From the IMG/VR virus record IMGVR_UViG_3300037054_000044, positions 1 to 64,000 of that record: a DNA stretch of 64,000 nucleotides, one strand, 5' to 3'. Positions within the stretch are counted from its first letter, which is position 1, and the number at the start of each line of letters is the position of its first letter. Positions 7,479-63,891 of the stretch are shown here, piece after piece. Below the pieces are notes generated by a model, which worked only from the letters and a program-made list of their open reading frames with translations, was not told the DNA's origin and ran no database searches. Origin of the DNA: a virus. A program made the position numbers and the translations under genes.

Positions 7479-8870
7479 ATGAAAGTTCTAATCGCAGTAC
7501 TCAGTTGCGAGTTGTACAGGACTAACGGAAACAACCAAGCGCTCAGGGACACATGGCTTCCTAGCATAAAGGGAGCAGACTACAAAATCTTCATGGGGCA
7601 AGGCAGCACCATAACCCTGCCCGATGAAGTTTACTTAGATGTCCCTGATGACTACAGCAATGTCACCTACAAAACTCGTTCCATATACCAATGGGCTTCG
7701 GAGCATGAATACGACTTCATTTTCAAGTGCTTTTGTGACACCTATGTGTGTCCCGATAGGCTGCTAAGAAGTGGATTTGAACACTACGACTACGTAGGCA
7801 ACTTTGCGTGCAGACCGCAAGGCAGTTTTGCATACTGCACAGGGGGCGCAGGGTATTGGCTCAGCAAGAAGGCTTACAGGCCGCTGGCAACTGCTCATAT
7901 CCCTAAGGGGGACACAGTAGTAGTCATACCGCCAAACAGAAGGCCGCTAAGATCAAGAGCACCACAACGCCCTAACAACACACCAACCACCACAGCGCAA
8001 AACGTCCTAGGGTGGGCAGAGGACAGGTGGACAGGCGGGTTAGTGTATACCCATGAAGACCTAAAAATCTACCACGACACTCGCTACGAGGAGAACGTGT
8101 ATGGGACAGGCCCAACACAAAGCAACAGCACCATAAGCATACACCTGTCTCGTACAAACTACGTAGAAGGCTCACCCGCCAAGTTCGATAAGTCTTGGAT
8201 GTACGACAAGCACAACGAGTGGACACGAGGACTAACTAGCACCGTCTCAGGGTTTCACAATGAAGATATACGTGAGTTTTACGACTGGGAGCACGAGATG
8301 TTTGATTCAACAGGAAGAACAGACGGTGTGAACAAAATAGCAGTGATCACCCCTACCGTTTGCAGTAGAACCTCCTTGTTGGAAGAGTGCAAGCAGTCTG
8401 TGCTGGCGCAGACGTGGAAAGGTGAAATCTTTCACGCAATAGGAGTAGACTCCGAAAAAGAAGGAGCCGCAAAGACTCGCAACAGGATTGTTAGAGGCTT
8501 AGAGCCGTCATACGATTGGTTGGTTTTTTGTGATGACGATGACAACCTCCTGCCAGATCATATTGCCACTCTGGTCTCTGCTAGCAACGGTGCCGACGTA
8601 GTGTATTCCAACTGCCAAGAAGAAGGCTTTACCAAAACGTGGAACACTAGAGAATTCAACTACGATGCCGTAAAGGAAGCCAACTACATACCCGTGACCG
8701 TACTAATGCGGCGCAGCATGTTTGAAAAGGTGGGAGGATTCCAATCCGAACCCTACCCAGGAGAGGATCAGCACCTATGGCTCAGAGCCGCTTTAGCAGG
8801 GGCGAGGTTCGCCTACGTGCCACAAACAACGTGGACGTACCGCCAGCACCCGCAGCACAGAGAGACATAG
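7479..8870 (+). CDS. Two-domain glycosyltransferase, GT31-like plus GT2-like
   Basis: The N-terminal half (about 1-230) resembles beta-1,3-galactosyltransferases: NQALRDTWLP, then FKCFCDTYVCPDRLL in the DxD position, then GGAGYWLSKKA. Its single remaining acid in the DxD region (FCD rather than DDD) may weaken metal binding. The C-terminal half (about 285-463) is GT2-like: VITPTVCSRTSLLEEC, WLVFCDDDDNLLPDH and a late GEDQHLW motif. The enzyme probably adds sugars to virion or cell glycans. It is the first gene of the glycan cassette. Confidence 0.75.
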   Translation: MKVLIAVLSCELYRTNGNNQALRDTWLPSIKGADYKIFMGQGSTITLPDEVYLDVPDDYSNVTYKTRSIYQWASEHEYDFIFKCFCDTYVCPDRLLRSGFEHYDYVGNFACRPQGSFAYCTGGAGYWLSKKAYRPLATAHIPKGDTVVVIPPNRRPLRSRAPQRPNNTPTTTAQNVLGWAEDRWTGGLVYTHEDLKIYHDTRYEENVYGTGPTQSNSTISIHLSRTNYVEGSPAKFDKSWMYDKHNEWTRGLTSTVSGFHNEDIREFYDWEHEMFDSTGRTDGVNKIAVITPTVCSRTSLLEECKQSVLAQTWKGEIFHAIGVDSEKEGAAKTRNRIVRGLEPSYDWLVFCDDDDNLLPDHIATLVSASNGADVVYSNCQEEGFTKTWNTREFNYDAVKEANYIPVTVLMRRSMFEKVGGFQSEPYPGEDQHLWLRAALAGARFAYVPQTTWTYRQHPQHRET

Positions 8871-10290: not shown

Positions 10291-10448
10291 AGTGGAAGAA
10301 AATGGCATTAGAGTTGTACTTCCATGTGCACGGAAGACGTTGTGTGCTCTGCTCTAAACCTGTAACAACACCAGAGGCACACATAGAGATTAGAGAAAAA
10401 GAATACCACCTCATGCACAAGTCGTGTGCTACTCGGGAGAAGGTATGA
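10287..10448 (+). CDS. Small Cys/His zinc-binding protein (53 aa)
   Basis: A C-X2-C knuckle (CVLCSK) is followed by a H-X3-C pair (MHKSCAT), a likely treble-clef or zinc-finger-like unit. It overlaps the GT11 stop and the gmd start (both ATGA), so it is translationally coupled to the sugar genes. Role unknown. Confidence 0.6.
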
Positions 10449-11401
10449 AGAAAGCACTTATAACTGGCGTTACGGGCCAAGATGGCTCTTACTTAGCAGA
10501 ACTGCTGCTTAGCAAAGGCTATGAAGTGCACGGCATCGTGCGCCGCTCCTCCTCCCTCAACACGCAGCGTATTGACCACATCTTTGACCAACTGCATCTG
10601 CACTTCGGTGACCTCAGTGATGGCAGTGCACTTGGCTCCCTTCTTTCCAAGGTGAAGCCTGAAGAGGTTTACAACCTTGGTGCGCAGTCGCACGTGCGCG
10701 TGTCATTTGACTGCCCCGAGTATACGGCGGATGTGGACGCCATGGGAACCCTAAGGCTCTTAGAGGCAGTAAAGTCGCATTGCCCAGAGGCGCGGTACTA
10801 CCAAGCCAGTTCTTCGGAACTGTTCGGCAAAGTGTTGGAGACCCCACAGCGAGAGACTACGCCATTCTACCCCAGATCGCCCTATGGAGTAGCTAAGTTA
10901 TTTTCCTACTGGTACACAGTGAACGCTAGGGAGCAGGGCATGTTTGCCTGCAACGGTATCTTGTTCAACCACGAATCCCCACGGCGTGGCGAGACTTTTG
11001 TGACGCATAAAATCACTCTTGCTGCGGCACGTATAAAACTAGGGTTGCAAAATAAGTTGCTTCTTGGTAACCTAGATGCTAGGCGCGATATTGGGTATGC
11101 AGCCGAGTATGTGGAAGGAATGTGGCGCATGCTGCAACAGTCCAAGCCTGACGATTACGTTTTAGCGACCGGAGAGACTCACTCTATAAAAGACATGCTT
11201 GGAGTGGCATTTAATCACGTAGGTTTGGACTGGTCGAAGTACGTAGGTATAGATGAGCGTTACTTTAGACCTACTGAAGTTGATATACTTCAGGGAGATG
11301 CTTCAAAAGCTAAGAGAGAACTTGGGTGGGAACCTAAAGTGAAATGGGATGAGTTGTTAACCATGATGGTCGAAGCCGATTTAAAGGAACTCAGAAAATG
11401 A
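10445..11401 (+). CDS. gmd: GDP-mannose 4,6-dehydratase
   Basis: The product is an extended SDR of 318 residues: [19 protein letters not shown]-binding loop, SSSELFG catalytic segment, [12 protein letters not shown] with the YxxxK pair, and [17 protein letters not shown], which is diagnostic of Gmd. It makes GDP-4-keto-6-deoxy-mannose, the branch point to GDP-fucose and to 3,6-dideoxy sugars. The start at 10445 is chosen for GGGAGAAGG and the ATGA overlap. Confidence 0.93.
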
Positions 11402-11934
11402 ATAAATTTTACACATATATGTGGTTACGGGAAGACGGAACACCATATTATGTAGGAAAAGGTCACGGCAATCGTAGCCATTGGAGAGGTATTAAGTCAA
11501 AATTAAAACCTCCTACTGAAGATAGAATAATAGTGCAAGAATTCGATTCAGAGGAAGATGCGTTTTTTGCAGAACGATTCTTAATTTCTTACTACGGAAG
11601 AAAAGACACAAAACAAGGAATACTAGTAAACCACACGGACGGCGGTGATGGAGTAACAGGCTTACGACACACAGAAGATTCCAAAAAAAGAATAGCAGAA
11701 GGTCTAAAAGGTAGGCACTATGGTATAGGAAGAGTGCCTTGGAACAAAGGGTTAAAGGTATCAAAAACCCTACGTAAACCACTGTCTGAAGAGCACAAGG
11801 AAAGAATAAGGCAAACTTTAAGATCAAAAAATATAAAACCACCAAATCAGACAGGCTACAGACACAGTGAAAGTGCTAAAGTAAAAATAGGAATAGCCGC
11901 TAAGGAAATGTGGAAGAAGGCTGCACATGCTTGA
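11398..11934 (+). CDS. GIY-YIG homing endonuclease
   Basis: The N-terminal GIY-YIG fold ([20 protein letters not shown], family variant YTY..YYVG) is followed by repeated HTES/HSES modular DNA-binding motifs of the NUMOD type ([30 protein letters not shown]). It is inserted between gmd and the reductase gene, overlapping both, so it interrupts the operon without breaking either reading frame. It is closely related to the endonuclease at 32028-32660. Confidence 0.88.
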
Positions 11935-12856
11935 TCTTTCAAATAAACGTGTACTGGTTACTGGTGGGTACGGTTTTTTAGGGTCTTATGTAGTTGATAA
12001 GCTGTGCGAGCGTGAAGCAGAGGTAGTTTCTGTAAGACACTCCCTGTTTGACCTACGCAGACGAGAAGAAGTCTGCGAGATGTACCGAGCGTATCGCCCA
12101 GATGTTGTGATACACGCAGCCGCTATGTGCGGTGGCATACAAGCGTGCTCTGCAAACCCAGCGCGATTCTTGTATGACAATCTAACAATGGGATTGGAAT
12201 TGCTCGAAGGGGCCAGAGAGTATGGCGTGGAAAAGTTCGTGGCGATTAGCAGCGTTTGTGCATACCCACTTAACGTGGCCTTACCAGCAAAAGAAGAAGA
12301 CATTTGGAATGGCTATCCAGAGAGTACCAACGCTCCCTACGGGATTGCTAAGCGTGTCCTTCTGGAACAGTGCAAAGCGTACCGCAAGCAATATGGCATG
12401 AACGCCATAGGTTTGATCCCAGTGAACATGTATGGACCACGAGACAGTTTTGACCCAGAGCGCTCGCACGTCATCCCTTCCCTCATAAGAAAGTGCCTAA
12501 ACGCCAAAGCAAACGAACGCACCCTGGCAGTGTGGGGAACAGGCAGCGCTACTAGGGAGTTCTTGTATGTAGAGGACTGCGCCGAAGCCATTGTTCTGGC
12601 GACCGAGAAGTACGACGGTGAAGAACCCGTCAACATAGCCACGGGGATAGAGACTACTATTAAGTACCTCGTGTACACCATAGCCGACGCAACTGACTTT
12701 CGTGGTGGAATCGTTTGGGATACAACCAGACCAGAGGGGCAGCCACGCAGACTGTTCGACACACGCCGCGCAGAGCAGTTTGGGTTCAAGGCTACAACGT
12801 TCTTACAAGAAGGACTCAGGAAAACAGTGGAGTGGTACAAAAATGTTCAAAGTTAA
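11927..12856 (+). CDS. fcl: GDP-L-fucose synthase-like epimerase/reductase
   Basis: The 309-residue SDR has VTGGYGFLGSYVVDKL, CGGIQACSANPARFLYDN, SSVCAYP, NAPYGIAKR (YxxxK) and SHVIPSLIRK, all as in GDP-fucose synthase. It would convert the Gmd product to GDP-L-fucose. ColC, which makes GDP-colitose, is a homologue, so with the His-type DegT enzyme nearby a dideoxy-sugar substrate is also possible. It overlaps the endonuclease stop by 8 nt. Confidence 0.88.
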   Translation: MLDLSNKRVLVTGGYGFLGSYVVDKLCEREAEVVSVRHSLFDLRRREEVCEMYRAYRPDVVIHAAAMCGGIQACSANPARFLYDNLTMGLELLEGAREYGVEKFVAISSVCAYPLNVALPAKEEDIWNGYPESTNAPYGIAKRVLLEQCKAYRKQYGMNAIGLIPVNMYGPRDSFDPERSHVIPSLIRKCLNAKANERTLAVWGTGSATREFLYVEDCAEAIVLATEKYDGEEPVNIATGIETTIKYLVYTIADATDFRGGIVWDTTRPEGQPRRLFDTRRAEQFGFKATTFLQEGLRKTVEWYKNVQS

Positions 12857-13616
12857 AACCGTAGGCGGAACTCTGCACAACCACTTTGCGGATCAAGTTA
12901 GACCCGTGTCCATAGCCACAGATACTTTCGACTTTTCAGACACCACAGAGTACAAGGTGTTCTTTCAACTGGAGCCACCTGACATCGTGCCTACAGAGCA
13001 GCCGTTACTCGATGGGCATACGTTCTACGACCTAATCTTGGCGTGGAATGAAAGAACCTTAGTAGGGTGCCCAAACAACGCGCATAAGTTCATCTTCGGA
13101 ACGTGCCGATGGGCGGAAGACCCAGCCGATGACTGCGATGTGTCTAAGAAGCAGTTTGCCGCGTCTTACCTGACCAGTTCCAAGACGATGTGCAAGGGAC
13201 ATTACTTTAGGCATGACATCTTCAATGTCCTCTCAGCGCAGGTGGGGCAAGTCCCCATAACAAAGCACATGTCTCCTCCATATGTAGAAGACAAGAAGGA
13301 ATTTCTGTACCCTTTCCAGTACGCAATCGTTATGGAGAACGGAAGGCGCACTAACTGGATTACAGAGAAGTTGATAGATTGTTTGGTGTCACGTACGGTA
13401 CCGATATACTGGGGCTGTCCGAACGTTGGAGAATACTTCAACACCGACAGTATCCTGTCATTCGAAACGCAAGACGAACTCATGGCAATCCTAGGGAGCC
13501 TCTCGTCAAGTTTTTATGCAACAAAACTTGATGCTATTGACGAGAACCTGCACGAAGCCATGAAGTACACCAACCTTCATAAGAGGATTGACGAGGAAAT
13601 AAGAAAACGCCTTTAG
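12843..13616 (+). CDS. GT10 fucosyltransferase (alpha-1,3/1,4 type)
   Basis: The signature GT10 donor-site block is present near residues 160-200: YAIVMENGRRTNWITEKLID then VPIYWGCPNVGEYFN. GT10 enzymes transfer fucose from GDP-fucose. The ATG at 12843 is inside the 3' end of the reductase gene. Together with GT11 it gives the phage two fucosyltransferases of different linkage type. Confidence 0.85.
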   Translation: MFKVKTVGGTLHNHFADQVRPVSIATDTFDFSDTTEYKVFFQLEPPDIVPTEQPLLDGHTFYDLILAWNERTLVGCPNNAHKFIFGTCRWAEDPADDCDVSKKQFAASYLTSSKTMCKGHYFRHDIFNVLSAQVGQVPITKHMSPPYVEDKKEFLYPFQYAIVMENGRRTNWITEKLIDCLVSRTVPIYWGCPNVGEYFNTDSILSFETQDELMAILGSLSSSFYATKLDAIDENLHEAMKYTNLHKRIDEEIRKRL

Positions 13617-13630
13617 TAGGAGACGACTCA

Positions 13631-14806
13631 GTGATAACTTTAGGGCAACTCAATATAAGCGAGCAAGGAAAGAAGTACGTCAACGACTGCCTAGACTCAA
13701 ACAGGCTGTCTAAGGGAAAGTACACGGCAAAGTTTGAGCAGGACTTTGCAAAGTTGCATGGCTGTAGCCACGGAGTGTTCTGCAACAGCGGAACATCCGC
13801 CCTGCAAATCGCGTTGGCAGCACTCAAGGAACGCCACAGGTTTGACTACGAAGACGGGGACGAAGTGTTGGTCCCAGCCATTACGTTCATCGCCACATCG
13901 AATGTGGTGTTGCAGAATAACCTGAAGCCCGTGTTCGTGGATGTTGATCCAGTAACGTTCAACATGGACCCAAACAAGATTGCAGAGAAGATTACCCCTA
14001 GGACCAGAGCCATTATTCCTGTTCATCTCTTCGGCCTTCCAGCCGACATGCCGAGGATTATGAGCATCGCCCATCACTACGGACTGGACGTAATAGAAGA
14101 CTCATGTGAAACAATGTTTGCTGGCATTGACGGCAGATCAGTAGGAACGTTTGGAGACATGGCGTGCTTCAGCACCTACGTGGCGCATCTCATTGTAGGT
14201 GGCGTGGGCGGCTTGGTAACAACCAATAACCCAGCGTACGACGAACTGTGCCGCAGCCTCATGGCGCACGGTCGGGACAGCATCTATACCAGCATTGACG
14301 ATGACGACGACATAACCAAGAACATGATAGAGCGTCGTTACAAATTTGACCGCGTAGGGTATTCGTACCGCTGCACAGAGATAGAGGCGGCAATCGCCCT
14401 GTCTGAACTGGAGCGGTGGGCGTTTAGCATCAACCGCAGACGCTGTAATGCTACTCTTCTAACCGTTCTGCTAAAACCATACGAAGATAAACTGCAGCTA
14501 TCAACCATACCTGAAGGGTATGAGCATTCGTATATGATGTTTCCATTTGTCTGCAAGGCAGGGGTGAATCGAGACGCCTTGCTGCTACACATGGAGCAGA
14601 AGGGAATTGAAACCCGCTTTATGTTCCCGTTGTTGAGCCAGCCCATATACAGGAAGTTGTTCCCAGGGCTTGCTGAGCGGTACCCTGTGGCAAGTCGTCT
14701 GGAGAAGCAAGGGTTCTTTATTGGGATGCACCAAGGTCTAACCCCAGCGGATATGCACTTCGTTGCTCAGACAATTGCGGAGGGACTATGCGCCCAGCGA
14801 CAATAG
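13631..14806 (+). CDS. DegT-family PLP enzyme with His in place of the PLP lysine (ColD/E1-like)
   Basis: The family layout is clear: NSGTSALQIALAA, EVLVPAITFIATSNVV, VHLFGLPADMPRI, VIEDSCE and a C-terminal FPLLSQPIY. Where aminotransferases have FSFHPTK-x6-GG, this protein has FSTYVAHLIVGGVGG, so His replaces the lysine that binds PLP. In ColD and E1, His there turns the enzyme into a sugar 3-dehydratase. ColD uses exactly the Gmd product. The GTG start follows GGAGACGACTCA. Function is inferred from the replacement. Confidence 0.75.
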   Translation: MITLGQLNISEQGKKYVNDCLDSNRLSKGKYTAKFEQDFAKLHGCSHGVFCNSGTSALQIALAALKERHRFDYEDGDEVLVPAITFIATSNVVLQNNLKPVFVDVDPVTFNMDPNKIAEKITPRTRAIIPVHLFGLPADMPRIMSIAHHYGLDVIEDSCETMFAGIDGRSVGTFGDMACFSTYVAHLIVGGVGGLVTTNNPAYDELCRSLMAHGRDSIYTSIDDDDDITKNMIERRYKFDRVGYSYRCTEIEAAIALSELERWAFSINRRRCNATLLTVLLKPYEDKLQLSTIPEGYEHSYMMFPFVCKAGVNRDALLLHMEQKGIETRFMFPLLSQPIYRKLFPGLAERYPVASRLEKQGFFIGMHQGLTPADMHFVAQTIAEGLCAQRQ

Positions 14807-15234
14807 AAGAGAAGATGGCCTCATGCCATCCCGATAGAGAGTACCATTCAAAAGGGCTGTGTGCTCCTTGTTACCTGCATAAATATAATGCAGAGCACAA
14901 AGATAAGAACAATGTGCGTTGTAGGCAACATAGGGAAGAAAACCAAAGAAACCTTATAACTTACTTTGAAAACCACCCATGTGTAGACTGTGGAGAAACT
15001 GATCCAATAGTTCTAGAGTTTGACCACATTGTACCTAGAAGCGAGAGCAACGCTCCTAAGATTTCTACTGTAATTGCAGGGCACACTTGGGAAAACGTAC
15101 TTAAAGAAATAAGTAAGTGTGAAGTACGATGCGCTAATTGCCACACTAGAAAAACATCTGTTCAGTTTGGTTACTTGAGAGTTAGTGTGGTAAATCAAGG
15201 CTCATTCATGCAATACGTAGGGTCGGGGTGCTAA
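14788..15234 (+). CDS. HNH homing endonuclease
   Basis: Compact HNH core: CVDCGETDP, LEFDHIVPRSE, then CEVRCANCHTRK with paired cysteine knuckles. The N-terminus has another Cys cluster (LCAPCYLHK). It overlaps the end of the DegT gene by 19 nt and ends 1 nt before the TTG start of the next glycosyltransferase, so it is embedded in the sugar operon. Confidence 0.82.
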   Translation: MRPATIEEKMASCHPDREYHSKGLCAPCYLHKYNAEHKDKNNVRCRQHREENQRNLITYFENHPCVDCGETDPIVLEFDHIVPRSESNAPKISTVIAGHTWENVLKEISKCEVRCANCHTRKTSVQFGYLRVSVVNQGSFMQYVGSGC

Positions 15235-15235
15235 A

Positions 15236-16015
15236 TTGAAACCAGTGACTATAGCAGTTCTAGGGCGGTTTCCTGATATTTTCGACAGGTTCGTAGAGAG
15301 TGCAAACCAGTACCTTCCTACTATTCCCAAGGTGTTTGTACGGGACGGTGACCTAATCACAATGCCCACTGGTGTAATGTGGACAAGCATACAAGGTGAA
15401 GGTCCATTTTCTAACCCAGCTTTTGCAAACATTGCGTGGCAAGCCGCCGCGCCTGATAGCGACATTCTGTACTGTGGAGACGATGTGCGCTTCCTTCAGC
15501 CCAACACGTGGGAACTGCTGCAGGAGATTGCGTACTCAGACCCAAGCATAGGCGTACTTTCCCCGCGCATCATAGGGGCGGCAGGCAACAACTTGCAACT
15601 ATATCCAATGGCAGAGGGCATCACCTACTCACATCAGCGTCTGGCTTACATCTGTGTGTACATCAAACGAGAAGTCATAGAAAAAGCTGGTTACATGGAT
15701 GAGGAGTTTGGTGGTTCTTACGGATATGATGATGACTCGCACTGTTGGAAAGTACAGCAGTCAGGGTACCAGTTGGCAGTGACCTCAAAAGTGTCCGTAG
15801 AACATAAGAATGCTGGCAGCACCTTTGCTCGCACAGGACCGGGCACAGATTGCCGAACAGGAGCAGAGAAGTTCCAAAATAAATGGGGAATAAAGGCTGT
15901 GTCGCAGATAGCCGCAGACGTGGCTAAGGACATGGTTGTGGTTCGACAAACACTTCCTCCTTTGCAGCCTATCGCAAGGACGGGAAGGTCACCGCAAAGA
16001 CTCAGGAGAGGGTAA
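15236..16015 (+). CDS. GT2-like glycosyltransferase
   Basis: Segments DSDILYCGDDVRFL (DDV metal site), GVLSPRIIGAAGN, REVIEKAGYMDEEF and YGYDDDSHCWK follow the GT2/GT-A pattern. The start is TTG one base after the endonuclease stop. The product is 259 residues, and its C-terminal 40 are Arg/Pro-rich and outside the fold. Confidence 0.75.
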   Translation: MKPVTIAVLGRFPDIFDRFVESANQYLPTIPKVFVRDGDLITMPTGVMWTSIQGEGPFSNPAFANIAWQAAAPDSDILYCGDDVRFLQPNTWELLQEIAYSDPSIGVLSPRIIGAAGNNLQLYPMAEGITYSHQRLAYICVYIKREVIEKAGYMDEEFGGSYGYDDDSHCWKVQQSGYQLAVTSKVSVEHKNAGSTFARTGPGTDCRTGAEKFQNKWGIKAVSQIAADVAKDMVVVRQTLPPLQPIARTGRSPQRLRRG

Positions 16016-16704
16016 TGAAGGTTTTGTTGGCTGTCGTGAATTGCCACACACGCTTGGCGTATCAGCAATGCATACGCGATACGTGGTTGCCACTTGTCAA
16101 CGGAGCGGATGTACGGTTTTTCCTTGGCCCATCCACGCGAGAGCCCCAAGCGGATGAAGTATTTCTAGACTGCGACGATTCCTATCAGGGATTGCCAAGC
16201 AAAGTGAGAGCCATTGTACGATGGGCTCTGGCGCAAGGTTATGATTACGTCCTAAAAATTGACGATGACGTTGTAGTGGTGCCACACAAGTTGCTGGCGT
16301 CAAACTTTCAAAGTTACGACTTTGTGGGCCACAGGAATGACATCAGACCGTACCCTGTACCGTACGGGTTCTGCTACTGGATGTCTAAACGGTCGCTGGC
16401 GCTTGTAGCATCTGCGGAATTGCCCAGAGACAACAATGATGAAGTGTGGGTCACCAGTACGCTGTCCAAAGACGGCATAACACTGCACCATGACAATCGC
16501 TACGTAATCCACACTGGCAGACAAGAAGACTTTGCACCTAAGGTCAGAGGGCTGCGAGCACCTAAGCGTGACAAGGCTTGGGTGGACCCAGTGGATGGTC
16601 CCTTTGCGTGGGTAATGTACATTCCTTGGGTTAACAGCTACGGCAGTCTGCCGCACGACCAAAACATTGCAGAGATGAAGAGGGTATTCAATGTCAATCG
16701 CTGA
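16015..16704 (+). CDS. GT31-like glycosyltransferase
   Basis: It resembles the N-terminal domain of the 7479-8870 product: QQCIRDTWLP, then LKIDDDVVVVPHKLL with an intact DDD metal motif, then YWMSKRSLAL. It probably transfers a hexose in beta-1,3 linkage. At 229 residues it is a single-domain version. The ATG overlaps the previous stop (TAATG) and GGAGAGG lies just upstream. Confidence 0.75.
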   Translation: MKVLLAVVNCHTRLAYQQCIRDTWLPLVNGADVRFFLGPSTREPQADEVFLDCDDSYQGLPSKVRAIVRWALAQGYDYVLKIDDDVVVVPHKLLASNFQSYDFVGHRNDIRPYPVPYGFCYWMSKRSLALVASAELPRDNNDEVWVTSTLSKDGITLHHDNRYVIHTGRQEDFAPKVRGLRAPKRDKAWVDPVDGPFAWVMYIPWVNSYGSLPHDQNIAEMKRVFNVNR

Positions 16705-17347: not shown

Positions 17348-18382
17348 ATGCCTTTAACAATTGATCAACAACTGGCATCGGCAGATGCGTTTGCGATCCT
17401 TGGAGCGTCCACGGTTACCAACTCAGGTGCCACCGTTATCACAGGTGGGAACCTTGGGTTGTCCCCTGGAACTTCGGTGACTGGGTTTCCACCCGGCATC
17501 GTTGTTGCCCCATCGGTACAACACATCACCGACGCAATTGCACTACAAGCACAGACTGATGCTCTGGCAGCTTGGAACGTCTATAAGAACTTGGCTCCAG
17601 GCACGATACTTACTCAACTTGCTGGACAAGTTCTTACCGCTGGAACTTACACAGCGTCTAGCACGTTGGACCTGTCCGTGGGTGGAACCTTAACCCTAAG
17701 TGGACCTGGAAACTTCATTTTCCAAGTAGGATCAGCACTAACCATCAACGTAGGAGCAACGGTGCTTCTGACGAACGGCGCACTCGCCAAGAACGTCTTT
17801 TGGCAAGTAGGCAGTTCGGCCACCATCGGAACATCAGCCGTGATGGTTGGAGATGTCGTTGCACTAGCGTCCGTGTCGTTAGGCACAGGCGCATCCTTGG
17901 CTGGCAGAGCCATCGGATTGACCGGAGCAGTTACATTGCTCGGCAATGCGGTCACTATAGCCGCAGGCGGTGTCATCCCTGTTCCTCCATTCCCAGTAAC
18001 AACTTCCTCAGTAGCGGCTACGGTCTCTACTTTGTCAGAACTTTGCTTTCCTGACATAACGGGAAAAGTTATTAGGGCTTGGGGACTAGTGACACTTACC
18101 CCAGGTGGGTACACTGTAGGCGGCATTCCGTTCGGGTTGTTTCCGTTCTTGGATGTGCGCACTGTGGATGTCAACGCATTCCTGAAGTGCGACGTGTACG
18201 GCGAAGAGCCGCTGACGAGCACCACTGCTGGAATCAAGTACCACTACAGCCCTACGACTGATGCACTCCAGATTCTTTACCTTGGAGTTGAACTTTCAGC
18301 CAGTCAAACACTTCCCGCTGGAGTTTTGGCTGATGTGCTTCTGTTCGAAGCATGGGTTGACCGCACGTCGGTGAGAGGATAA
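17348..18382 (+). CDS. DUF3494 ice-binding-like adhesin fused to a beta-domain
   Basis: Residues about 10-205 match the DUF3494 beta-solenoid of ice-binding proteins: FAILGASTVTNSGATVITG, LGLSPGTSVTGFPPG, TLTLSGPGNFIFQVGSAL, NVFWQVGSSATIGTSAVM, then ...GASLAGRAIGLTGAVTLLGN. The C-terminal 125 residues are the paralogous domain described for the preceding gene. In a phage the solenoid may bind a surface glycan or particle. Ice binding cannot be claimed from family alone. Confidence 0.85.
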   Translation: MPLTIDQQLASADAFAILGASTVTNSGATVITGGNLGLSPGTSVTGFPPGIVVAPSVQHITDAIALQAQTDALAAWNVYKNLAPGTILTQLAGQVLTAGTYTASSTLDLSVGGTLTLSGPGNFIFQVGSALTINVGATVLLTNGALAKNVFWQVGSSATIGTSAVMVGDVVALASVSLGTGASLAGRAIGLTGAVTLLGNAVTIAAGGVIPVPPFPVTTSSVAATVSTLSELCFPDITGKVIRAWGLVTLTPGGYTVGGIPFGLFPFLDVRTVDVNAFLKCDVYGEEPLTSTTAGIKYHYSPTTDALQILYLGVELSASQTLPAGVLADVLLFEAWVDRTSVRG

Positions 18383-44400: not shown

Positions 44401-44468
44401 GCTAAGGAGTCGAACAGAGGGCCACATAAAGTGGGCGACTATAAATTGTGCTCTTGGGTGAGAACATT

Positions 44469-45173
44469 ATGCGTAAGATTTTCAGAAGTCTAGCCAGCCT
44501 AGTGATCATTGCGACACTGGCAATCAGCCCTGCTTTCGGCATCCACAAGAAGCAGCTAACCAAATTACAAGAGAACCAGCACAAGTCCATGCACGAGATT
44601 GTCATGGTCAACCGCGACGAGAACGGCAAGGTCATTGGTGGAGGACTCTGCACAGCATATGCAGTCGGACCCCATACCCTGCTCACCGCAGAGCATTGCA
44701 ACGATGAGTATGCCACAGGCGTCTACATTGATGCCCCGCTGCAACTCATCCGCCCACAGCAGGTGATGTCCTACAAGATCATCAGCCGCACGTTCGACAA
44801 GCAGGATCATATGCTGCTAGATGTCTCTGGCATCTACTTCAAGAACACCATCGAACTGACTGACCACGTACGAGTACCGCGCCAGGGCGAGCACACTTAC
44901 CAATGGGGCAACCCTGGTGGGATACGTGACCAGTACCGCGAAGGCGTAGTCATGGGAAACATGCCTAGTTCCGGTGACGATGAAATTGACGCCACAGGAG
45001 TTGTGTACCTCATCCAAGAGACAGTCATTGGTGGCGACTCCGGTAGCTCAGTCTTCTCCGCAGAGGATGGACAACTCATCGGCATCATCACGTACGGAAT
45101 TGACGATGGAAAACTAGCAGGTGTGTACGCCATCGCCTTCACGCAGGCACAGATCACAGCATCAATGAAGTAA
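44469..45173 (+). CDS. Exported trypsin-like serine protease
   Basis: ATG 44469 gives a signal peptide (MRKIFRSLASLVIIATLAI, then SPAFG). The catalytic triad is visible: His in LLTAEHC, Asp in HMLLDVSG, Ser in GGDSGSSVF. It would be secreted and cut proteins in the envelope or medium. Exported chymotrypsin-fold proteases are unusual in phage genomes. It sits between a terminator and a spanin-like gene, so a role in release or in modifying the envelope is possible. Confidence 0.8.
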   Translation: MRKIFRSLASLVIIATLAISPAFGIHKKQLTKLQENQHKSMHEIVMVNRDENGKVIGGGLCTAYAVGPHTLLTAEHCNDEYATGVYIDAPLQLIRPQQVMSYKIISRTFDKQDHMLLDVSGIYFKNTIELTDHVRVPRQGEHTYQWGNPGGIRDQYREGVVMGNMPSSGDDEIDATGVVYLIQETVIGGDSGSSVFSAEDGQLIGIITYGIDDGKLAGVYAIAFTQAQITASMK

Positions 45174-62567: not shown

Positions 62568-63038
62568 TCAGTTTTTAATCCACCCAACACCTTTGCATTG
62601 TGGGCATTGCTTTCCTGTTACTTTTTCTGGGCGCTCCCAGACTCCTTCAGTCTCATCACTTTCCCACTCTTGATAATCGGAAAACTCTAAAGGTGTCCTT
62701 GGAGGGAACCCTTTAACCCAGCCCTTTACTGGTTTGAAGTTTGGGTCTGTGTTGTCGTACTCTTTTGGGTATGCAGGGGTGTACTCTTTGGTTATAGGCG
62801 AAACTGTTTCGCCTCTGCTGTGATTACCTCCATCGAGCATATACTGCACTGCACGTATAGAGCGTCCTAAATGTTTTTCACAAAACTCAGTTTTGGTTTT
62901 GCATCCTCGTATTGTTTCTTGTGGTTGAAGTTTTTCAAACTCTTTCCACAGGTTTTTGATGTCTGTTTTGTGTGCTGCAAGTTTAGCGAACGCTGCTACC
63001 ACTTTCTCTGCTAAGGCTTCTCTTTTTTTCTGGTCCAC
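62568..63038 (-). CDS. Hypothetical protein with C-terminal zinc knuckle (156 aa)
   Basis: GTG 63038 within the end of the Mom-like gene, with CGAGG upstream. Helical N-terminus (KREALAEKVVAAFAKLAAHK), LGRSIRAVQYML like a DNA-binding helix, and a final CPQCKGVGWI. Not recognised. Confidence 0.55.
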   Translation of the reverse strand: MDQKKREALAEKVVAAFAKLAAHKTDIKNLWKEFEKLQPQETIRGCKTKTEFCEKHLGRSIRAVQYMLDGGNHSRGETVSPITKEYTPAYPKEYDNTDPNFKPVKGWVKGFPPRTPLEFSDYQEWESDETEGVWERPEKVTGKQCPQCKGVGWIKN

Positions 63039-63891
63039 CTTCACCTCGTGGTATCTCGTAGTACTCCATACCCTCGAACAAATCTTTAATATGGAGAATT
63101 TTTCCTTCTTCCTTTTCAAGTGTAGCTGCTCCGCTGGCAATAGCCGCTCGCAATCTAACTGACAAAGAAGTTAAATACTCAGGAGTTTTAATAACGTACA
63201 CCAATCGCCCCGTTGCTCGTTCTGTCCAGCATATAGCCCTAGGTTTTTCAAGGGAGACTGCTGTTTTCCAATCATGCAGTACTTTAGGGTCTAATTCACT
63301 TTCAGAGCGTACTCGGAAGTTTTGGTACTGATCCAAGTTGCGTATAGGAAGACGCCTGCCCTTCTTAAAAGTTTTACCATCTACGGTGAAGTCTTTTTGC
63401 ATGATAGCGGCTCTAGTGCTTCCAGCCTCTTTGACCAGATGAAAACCGCTAGCACAGTAGATTAGCCCTGTATGTTTACCGTCTGGGTGCTCAGGTCGTT
63501 TTTGATTGGGGTCAGCATAGGATATTACTCTTTCTACTCCCAAAGTAGCTAGTTTTTGAAGCATTCTCCCTAAGAGGAAACTTTCGCTGTTCTTTGGTAA
63601 CTCATCCAGTAGCACTAGCCGTCGCAACTCAACTGCAATAACACCCGGACGAGTCTCTTGTTTGGAAGCAGAGTATTCTCCGTATTTTCTTTCTGTTTGA
63701 GTCTGTCCGGGCATTCCAAAAATGGCTGCTCCCACTTGTTTTTGAAAGTCATCTTTTAGAACCACCTCAAAAGACATGAAAGGCGTTATGCCTTTTACAG
63801 AGTGGGAGTAATGGTGCTCCTCTACAAACTTCCTGATGTCTCCCATGGAAGTGCAAGGGCGTATCCATAGGTTTTCTAGTTCAACAGTCAC
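62983..63891 (-). CDS. Mom-like DNA modification protein
   Basis: Residues 1-170 match the GNAT-like Mom fold: EEHHYSHSVKGITPFMSFEV, GAAIFGMPGQT, AVELRRLVLLDELPKNSESF, ISYADPNQK, HTGLIYCASGFHLVKE. Phage Mu Mom modifies adenine in DNA and protects it from restriction. The C-terminal 130 residues are extra. It is the first coding gene of the - strand block here. Assignment is by motif pattern; other GNAT functions are possible. Confidence 0.65.
   Translation of the reverse strand: MTVELENLWIRPCTSMGDIRKFVEEHHYSHSVKGITPFMSFEVVLKDDFQKQVGAAIFGMPGQTQTERKYGEYSASKQETRPGVIAVELRRLVLLDELPKNSESFLLGRMLQKLATLGVERVISYADPNQKRPEHPDGKHTGLIYCASGFHLVKEAGSTRAAIMQKDFTVDGKTFKKGRRLPIRNLDQYQNFRVRSESELDPKVLHDWKTAVSLEKPRAICWTERATGRLVYVIKTPEYLTSLSVRLRAAIASGAATLEKEEGKILHIKDLFEGMEYYEIPRGEGGPEKKRSLSRESGSSVR

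Follow-up and report, generated by a model that had tools for sequence, protein, structure and literature searches.

A viral DegT-family protein with histidine at the Schiff-base lysine position as a probable GDP-4-keto-6-deoxymannose 3-dehydratase

Results

A DegT-family gene in a viral sugar cassette

The window, that is, the whole stretch of DNA analysed here, comes from a viral record of 85,205 bases, of which it makes up the first 64,000. At positions 13631-14806 of its plus strand lies an open reading frame of 391 amino acids that begins with a GTG codon and whose product matches the Pfam family PF01041 (DegT/DnrJ/EryC1/StrS) over its full length (E=4.9e-96). The gene sits in a run of tightly packed genes on the same strand, with the following features (L numbers designate the loci compared):

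7479..8870, plus strand: glycosyltransferase with a GT2-like C-terminal part; it also heads the cassette in the viral relatives L002 and L003
8777..9550, plus strand: uncharacterised protein, kept in the cassette of L002, L003 and L018
9559..10290, plus strand: GT11 (alpha-1,2-fucosyltransferase-like) glycosyltransferase (PF01531), 31% identical to the GT11 protein of the E. coli O55 colitose cluster
10445..11401, plus strand: gmd, GDP-mannose 4,6-dehydratase (TIGR01472, 495 bits against a cut-off of 415; PF16363)
11398-11934, plus strand: GIY-YIG/endonuclease-like ORF, recognised by eye, with no Pfam match
11927..12856, plus strand: Fcl/ColC-type SDR, assigned from its NF047922 score (289 bits), its residues and a tree
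12843..13616, plus strand: GT10-type (fucosyltransferase-like) glycosyltransferase, a weak match to PF00852 (E=4.7e-6)
13618..13622, plus strand: Shine-Dalgarno-like AGGAG, read from the sequence, 8 nt upstream of the DegT GTG start
13631..14806, plus strand: PLP/PMP enzyme of the DegT fold, with histidine replacing the Schiff-base lysine; the proposed GDP-4-keto-6-deoxymannose 3-dehydratase
14186..14188, plus strand: codon of His186, the counterpart of GDP-perosamine synthase K186 and ColD H188
14788-15234, plus strand: HNH-like ORF, recognised by eye, with no Pfam match
15236..16015, plus strand: glycosyltransferase-like protein (PHROG 2456), which follows DegT in L002 and L003 too
16015..16704, plus strand: Galactosyl_T-like glycosyltransferase (PF01762), kept in L002 and L003

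The original prediction had placed the DegT gene next to gmd. There is a gmd gene in the cassette, but the two are not adjacent, with the GIY-YIG/endonuclease-like ORF, the SDR gene and the GT10-type gene lying between them. The two endonuclease-like ORFs are insertions in the sugar cassette; L002 and L003, with the genes in matching order, lack them. Further GIY-YIG/HNH-like ORFs are scattered across the window.

Histidine at the lysine position and the cofactor site

The stretch FSTYVAHLIVGGVGG is found in the window DegT protein, as had been stated, and its H186 occupies the column of the Schiff-base lysine, K186, of the Caulobacter GDP-perosamine synthase. The same column holds the catalytic H188 of ColD (the reference was taken from the E. 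coli O55 O-antigen cluster and is identical in sequence to PDB 2gms) and matches the histidine of the PAHH motif of RfbH/E1, in agreement with the predicted likeness to both types of dehydratase. Specifically, the window protein has A-H at this point, like E1, where ColD has S-H. Among the 110 best-matching loci, 109 cover the column (80 bacterial or archaeal genomes, 28 viral records and the window), and 108 of these have histidine, which indicates that H186 is not a chance substitution; the sole lysine is in L030, a protein just 30% identical. H186 is likewise invariant across a 58-row family alignment. A lysine elsewhere in the active site was also looked for, and none is conserved in that alignment. 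The only lysine well conserved there is K66, which lies off the known catalytic positions; the phosphate loop leads into a helix, and K66 stands at its distal end.

The rest of the cofactor site resembles that of ColD, with D157, S181, H213 and R329 corresponding to ColD D159, S183, H215 and R331. Two features count against a ColD-like reading. The residue equivalent to ColD N248 at the subunit interface, an asparagine in E1 and most aminotransferases as well, is serine, Ser245 in the window protein, in every member of the window clade in the tree alignment, and the motifs "SWFGF" and "GN" of ColD and E1 are absent from the window protein. Because the four-cysteine [2Fe-2S] motif of E1 is missing from all 58 rows of the family alignment, glutamate-driven chemistry of the ColD kind would be expected, rather than electron transfer of the E1 kind.

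Fold and phylogenetic position

The AlphaFold model of the DegT protein is confident (pLDDT 93). In a Foldseek comparison GDP-perosamine synthase ranks first (PDB 3bn1, 3dr4, 3dr7; 33% identity, TM 0.89-0.95), with E1 and ColD close behind; the structural comparison with ColD that had been proposed thus places it among the nearest solved folds, at about 27% identity. That the best solved match by both sequence and fold is an aminotransferase, not ColD (178 versus 148 bits), counts against a dehydratase. The ranking nonetheless matters in another respect, since the substrate of the top-ranked enzyme is the sugar that Gmd makes.

In a tree computed without the His columns, a branch with 99/94 support has every His-type enzyme on one side, and the clade of the window protein (100/99) is sister to ColD plus E1/RfbH (100/98). 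On this tree the window protein falls outside the ColD clade: it belongs to a third clade of His-type enzymes, as yet without a name, and is not a ColD orthologue. Members of this clade occur in many uncultured bacteria and archaea spanning many phyla. The clade has no NCBIfam name; the best NCBIfam model for the window protein is RfbH, at 231 bits far under the cut-off of 423, and the family libraries searched return the generic "DegT aminotransferase", a label of clade proteins that the assignment of the histidine corrects. It is less likely that the histidine arose independently from a perosamine synthase, apart from ColD and E1. Such an origin would fit the best solved match of the window protein and its C-terminal motifs, which resemble those of aminotransferases, and a grouping of the clade with perosamine-synthase-like enzymes is still compatible with the data (AU test, p=0.096), but the tree unites all His-type enzymes.

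In two DPANN archaea, Lys-type DegT genes lie directly before the His-type gene (L066, 4821-5963; L088, 4758-5882), and no Lys-type protein on the tree lies closer to the His-type enzymes as a whole than their products do; such a pair could make a sugar resembling GDP-3-deoxyperosamine. Nine His-type DegT proteins (L045, L068, L074, L081, L086, L091, L094, L103 and L106) carry a C-terminal extension of about 240 residues that by eye is like a degenerate DPM1-like GT2 domain, with no Pfam match.

Linkage to gmd in cellular genomes

With a neighbour counted as gmd at 300 bits or more, gmd lies near the His-type gene in 18 of the 47 cellular loci with full flanks, whereas among the Lys-type DegT paralogues of these genomes it does so for 1 of 20 (p=0.007); in that single case gmd adjoins a His-type gene. 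The two genes are immediately adjacent in 22 of the 80 cellular loci and are fused into a Gmd-DegT(His) protein in L070. GDP-mannose dehydratase/epimerase families dominate the flanking genes, at 24/56 directly before and 26/59 directly after, counts that take in Fcl-like genes since the SDR families overlap. Many cellular loci nevertheless have no gmd nearby, which counts against 3-dehydration of the Gmd product. Of 28 genomes without gmd near the gene, 18 have one elsewhere above the curated cut-off, and 24 have a match of more than 350 bits, with two more carrying an intein-split gmd; a gmd above the cut-off was found in 6 of 14 control genomes, although this comparison is rough.

The archaeal gmd genes in question (L267, 248-2362, minus strand, and L268, 132-2351, minus strand; Nanoarchaeota and Woesearchaeota) contain in-frame inserts of about 350 residues. 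These sit at NHE^SPRRG, begin with Ser or Cys and end with His-Asn or Ala-Asn before Ser, and are intein-like.

The SDR and the interchange of finishing modules

The SDR of the window scores below the curated cut-off of the GDP-fucose synthase model NF047922 (289 versus 500 bits); it shares 35% identity with WcaG and 33% with ColC. Being slightly closer to GDP-fucose synthase than to ColC, it might yield fucose, which counts against colitose. It keeps the equivalents of Ser107, Cys109, Tyr136, Lys140 and His179, a set common to ColC and Fcl that fits C5 epimerisation and C4 reduction; the suggestion that the reductase acts like ColC thus finds support in a complete set of predicted epimerase/reductase residues. 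In the SDR tree ColC forms one long branch and is not separated from Fcl. When viruses were scanned with the SDR, a single distant relative came up, since the search peptides were too specific.

The set of GT11, gmd, His-type DegT and GT10 genes recurs, in varying order, in viral relatives of 61% identity or more, although GT10 or GT11 was not seen in some of them. What varies is the module that would finish the sugar. The Fcl/ColC-type SDR is found in the window, L002, L003, L007/L013, L008/L009, L012 and L018, and an RmlC-like epimerase (PF00908) with a different SDR in L004, L005 and its near-copies, L010/L011 and L029; the two modules never occur together in any related viral cassette. In Campylobacter 3,6-dideoxyheptose pathways, the product of a C3-dehydratase is proven to be handled by a C5-epimerase and a C4-reductase (PMC10440746). 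Because Campylobacter uses such a pair, the swap of modules is a better argument that the SDR finishes the product of the dehydratase.

Some His-type DegT cassettes also contain a split thiamine-diphosphate (ThDP) enzyme (PF00676 E1_dh plus PF02779 Transket_pyr; L004, 3827-4417; L010, 3298-4466; also L081), which could add a two-carbon branch to a 4-keto-3,6-dideoxy sugar. A scan with GT11 revealed viruses in which a true ColD-type protein lies directly beside an Fcl/ColC-like gene (L203, L205, L221, L256, L260 and L264), in most of them with gmd nearby; this is the same cassette with the other dehydratase. A search of 14 virus records related to the window, several being fragments, revealed no nucleotidyltransferase (PF00483), so GDP-mannose is probably supplied by the host. 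Separately, DegT proteins of cyanophage type that have PAHH and Fe-S-like cysteines (L112, 5842-7137; L220; L229; L265) are E1-like 3-dehydratases in phages, encoded beside glycosyltransferases.

Discussion

The data establish directly the histidine, the conservation of the cofactor site, the grouping into a clade, the linkage of the genes and the swapping of finishing modules. It is informative to consider them in light of what is known of ColD, in which the Schiff base between PMP and the 4-keto sugar loses a proton to the histidine as the C3 hydroxyl leaves, hydrolysis yields a 4-keto-3,6-dideoxy sugar and glutamate regenerates PMP; replacement of the lysine by histidine is the mark of such dehydratases (PMC8987622). 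By analogy, the phage Gmd would convert host GDP-mannose to GDP-4-keto-6-deoxymannose. With its cofactor brought to the PMP form by glutamate, the DegT protein would form a ketimine at C4 of this sugar, and H186, standing where the lysine would be, would take the C4′ proton with expulsion of the C3 hydroxyl, so that hydrolysis would release GDP-4-keto-3,6-dideoxymannose. The Fcl/ColC-like SDR would then epimerise C5 and reduce C4 to give a GDP-3,6-dideoxyhexose, most likely GDP-L-colitose, which GT11 and/or GT10 would transfer to a glycan of the phage or of the host.

We hold these steps with differing confidence. That the DegT protein 3-dehydrates the Gmd product is quite likely, although we infer both catalysis and substrate. 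That the gene as a whole encodes a PMP-dependent GDP-4-keto-6-deoxymannose 3-dehydratase working like ColD and feeding a colitose-type pathway is a little less secure but still probable. Colitose itself as the product has about an even chance, its C4 and C5 configuration and its acceptor being matters of prediction. The proposed branch towards a 3,6-dideoxy sugar such as colitose nonetheless gains support from the histidine, the ColD-like cofactor residues and the linkage to gmd.

The most serious competing account, which we consider unlikely, keeps the 3-dehydratase on the Gmd product and has the SDR or host enzymes yield a 3,6-dideoxyhexose other than colitose, with a different C4 or C5 configuration. 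Viral relatives finish the sugar with the RmlC-like epimerase and SDR (L005, L010, L029), or with a split ThDP enzyme added (L004, L010), and several C4/C5 outcomes follow the same dehydratase in Campylobacter (PMC10440746), but the window SDR keeps all five epimerase/reductase residues of GDP-fucose synthase and ColC. Moreover, GT11 and GT10 enzymes typically use L-fuco-configured donors, and this preference likewise argues against a different configuration. We regard as improbable a plain GDP-L-fucose cassette of gmd, fcl and fucosyltransferases in which the DegT protein is an unrelated passenger, a lysine-less aminotransferase or a dead enzyme. The marginally greater identity of the SDR to WcaG than to ColC, the fucosyltransferase family names of GT10 and GT11 and the aminotransferase as best solved match all suit it. 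However, a histidine and cofactor site invariant over a clade of many phyla are unexpected for a dead enzyme, the DegT gene is retained while the viral cassette reshuffles, the exchange of histidine for lysine signals a dehydratase (PMC8987622) and a GT11 gene is present in the colitose cluster of E. coli O55 too. Least probable by far is a 3-dehydratase like E1 or SpnQ, needing a reductase and iron-sulphur electron transfer; it shares the fold and the histidine, and RfbH is the top NCBIfam model, but that score falls well short of its cut-off and the three to four cysteines of RfbH-type and cyanophage E1-like proteins appear in 0/58 rows, and on this missing motif we rejected it.

Returning to the ColD-like 3-dehydratase, its relation to known systems is one of partial likeness. 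It shares with ColD (PDB 2gms, 3gr9) the position of the catalytic histidine, the PLP-site Asp and Ser, the equivalents of His215 and Arg331, the lack of Fe-S cysteines, partnership with gmd and an Fcl/ColC-type SDR, and a GT11 gene in the cluster, and differs in its separate clade, low identity, serine for N248 and missing motifs. GDP-perosamine synthase uses GDP-4-keto-6-deoxymannose, also the proposed substrate of the window protein, but is an aminotransferase with a Schiff-base lysine. E1 (RfbH, CDP-4-keto-6-deoxyglucose 3-dehydrase) resembles it in fold, in A-H at the lysine position and in the 3-dehydration proposed here, and differs in its iron-sulphur motif, its CDP-linked sugar and its partner E3. 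In Campylobacter jejuni HS:5/HS:11, a Gmd-type 4,6-dehydratase, a PLP C3-dehydratase, a C5-epimerase and a C4-reductase (PMC10440746) make up the same set of modules as in the viral relatives L005, L010 and L029, but there the sugar is a heptose, and where Campylobacter has epimerase and reductase the window has a single Fcl/ColC-like SDR. Cyanophage S-SCSM1 also carries gmd, GDP-fucose synthase and fucosyltransferases, whereas no DegT 3-dehydratase is mentioned in the available part of that report (PMC9602691).

The 3,6-dideoxyhexoses have been described chiefly as components of the O-antigens that some Gram-negative bacteria carry, and two characterised types of 3-dehydratase, ColD and E1, make them, with SpnQ acting in an antibiotic pathway. 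We found no report of a phage colitose pathway in the open literature searched, coverage of which was incomplete. If our reading is correct, a separate gmd-linked clade extends 3,6-dideoxy-sugar chemistry to organisms in which it has never been sought, and phages themselves build such sugars, either for glycans of the virion or to give the surface of the host a new coat. We hesitate to go much further; as a tentative proposal that we do not favour outright, this third PLP 3-dehydratase clade of candidate-phylum bacteria, DPANN archaea and environmental phages might drive a modular viral 3,6-dideoxy-sugar pathway, in which a core of Gmd and dehydratase is finished interchangeably by a ColC-like SDR, by an RmlC-like epimerase plus SDR, or by these together with the split ThDP enzyme and a possible two-carbon branch at C4.

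Other genes of the window may also be of interest. A protein with an ice-binding-like domain (17348-18382; PF11999, E=7.6e-42) is encoded just after the glycosyltransferases, a trypsin-like serine protease (PF00089) with an N-terminal signal-like stretch lies at 44448-45173, and a Mom-family protein (PF25680) at 62983-63891 on the minus strand is a possible DNA base-modification gene.
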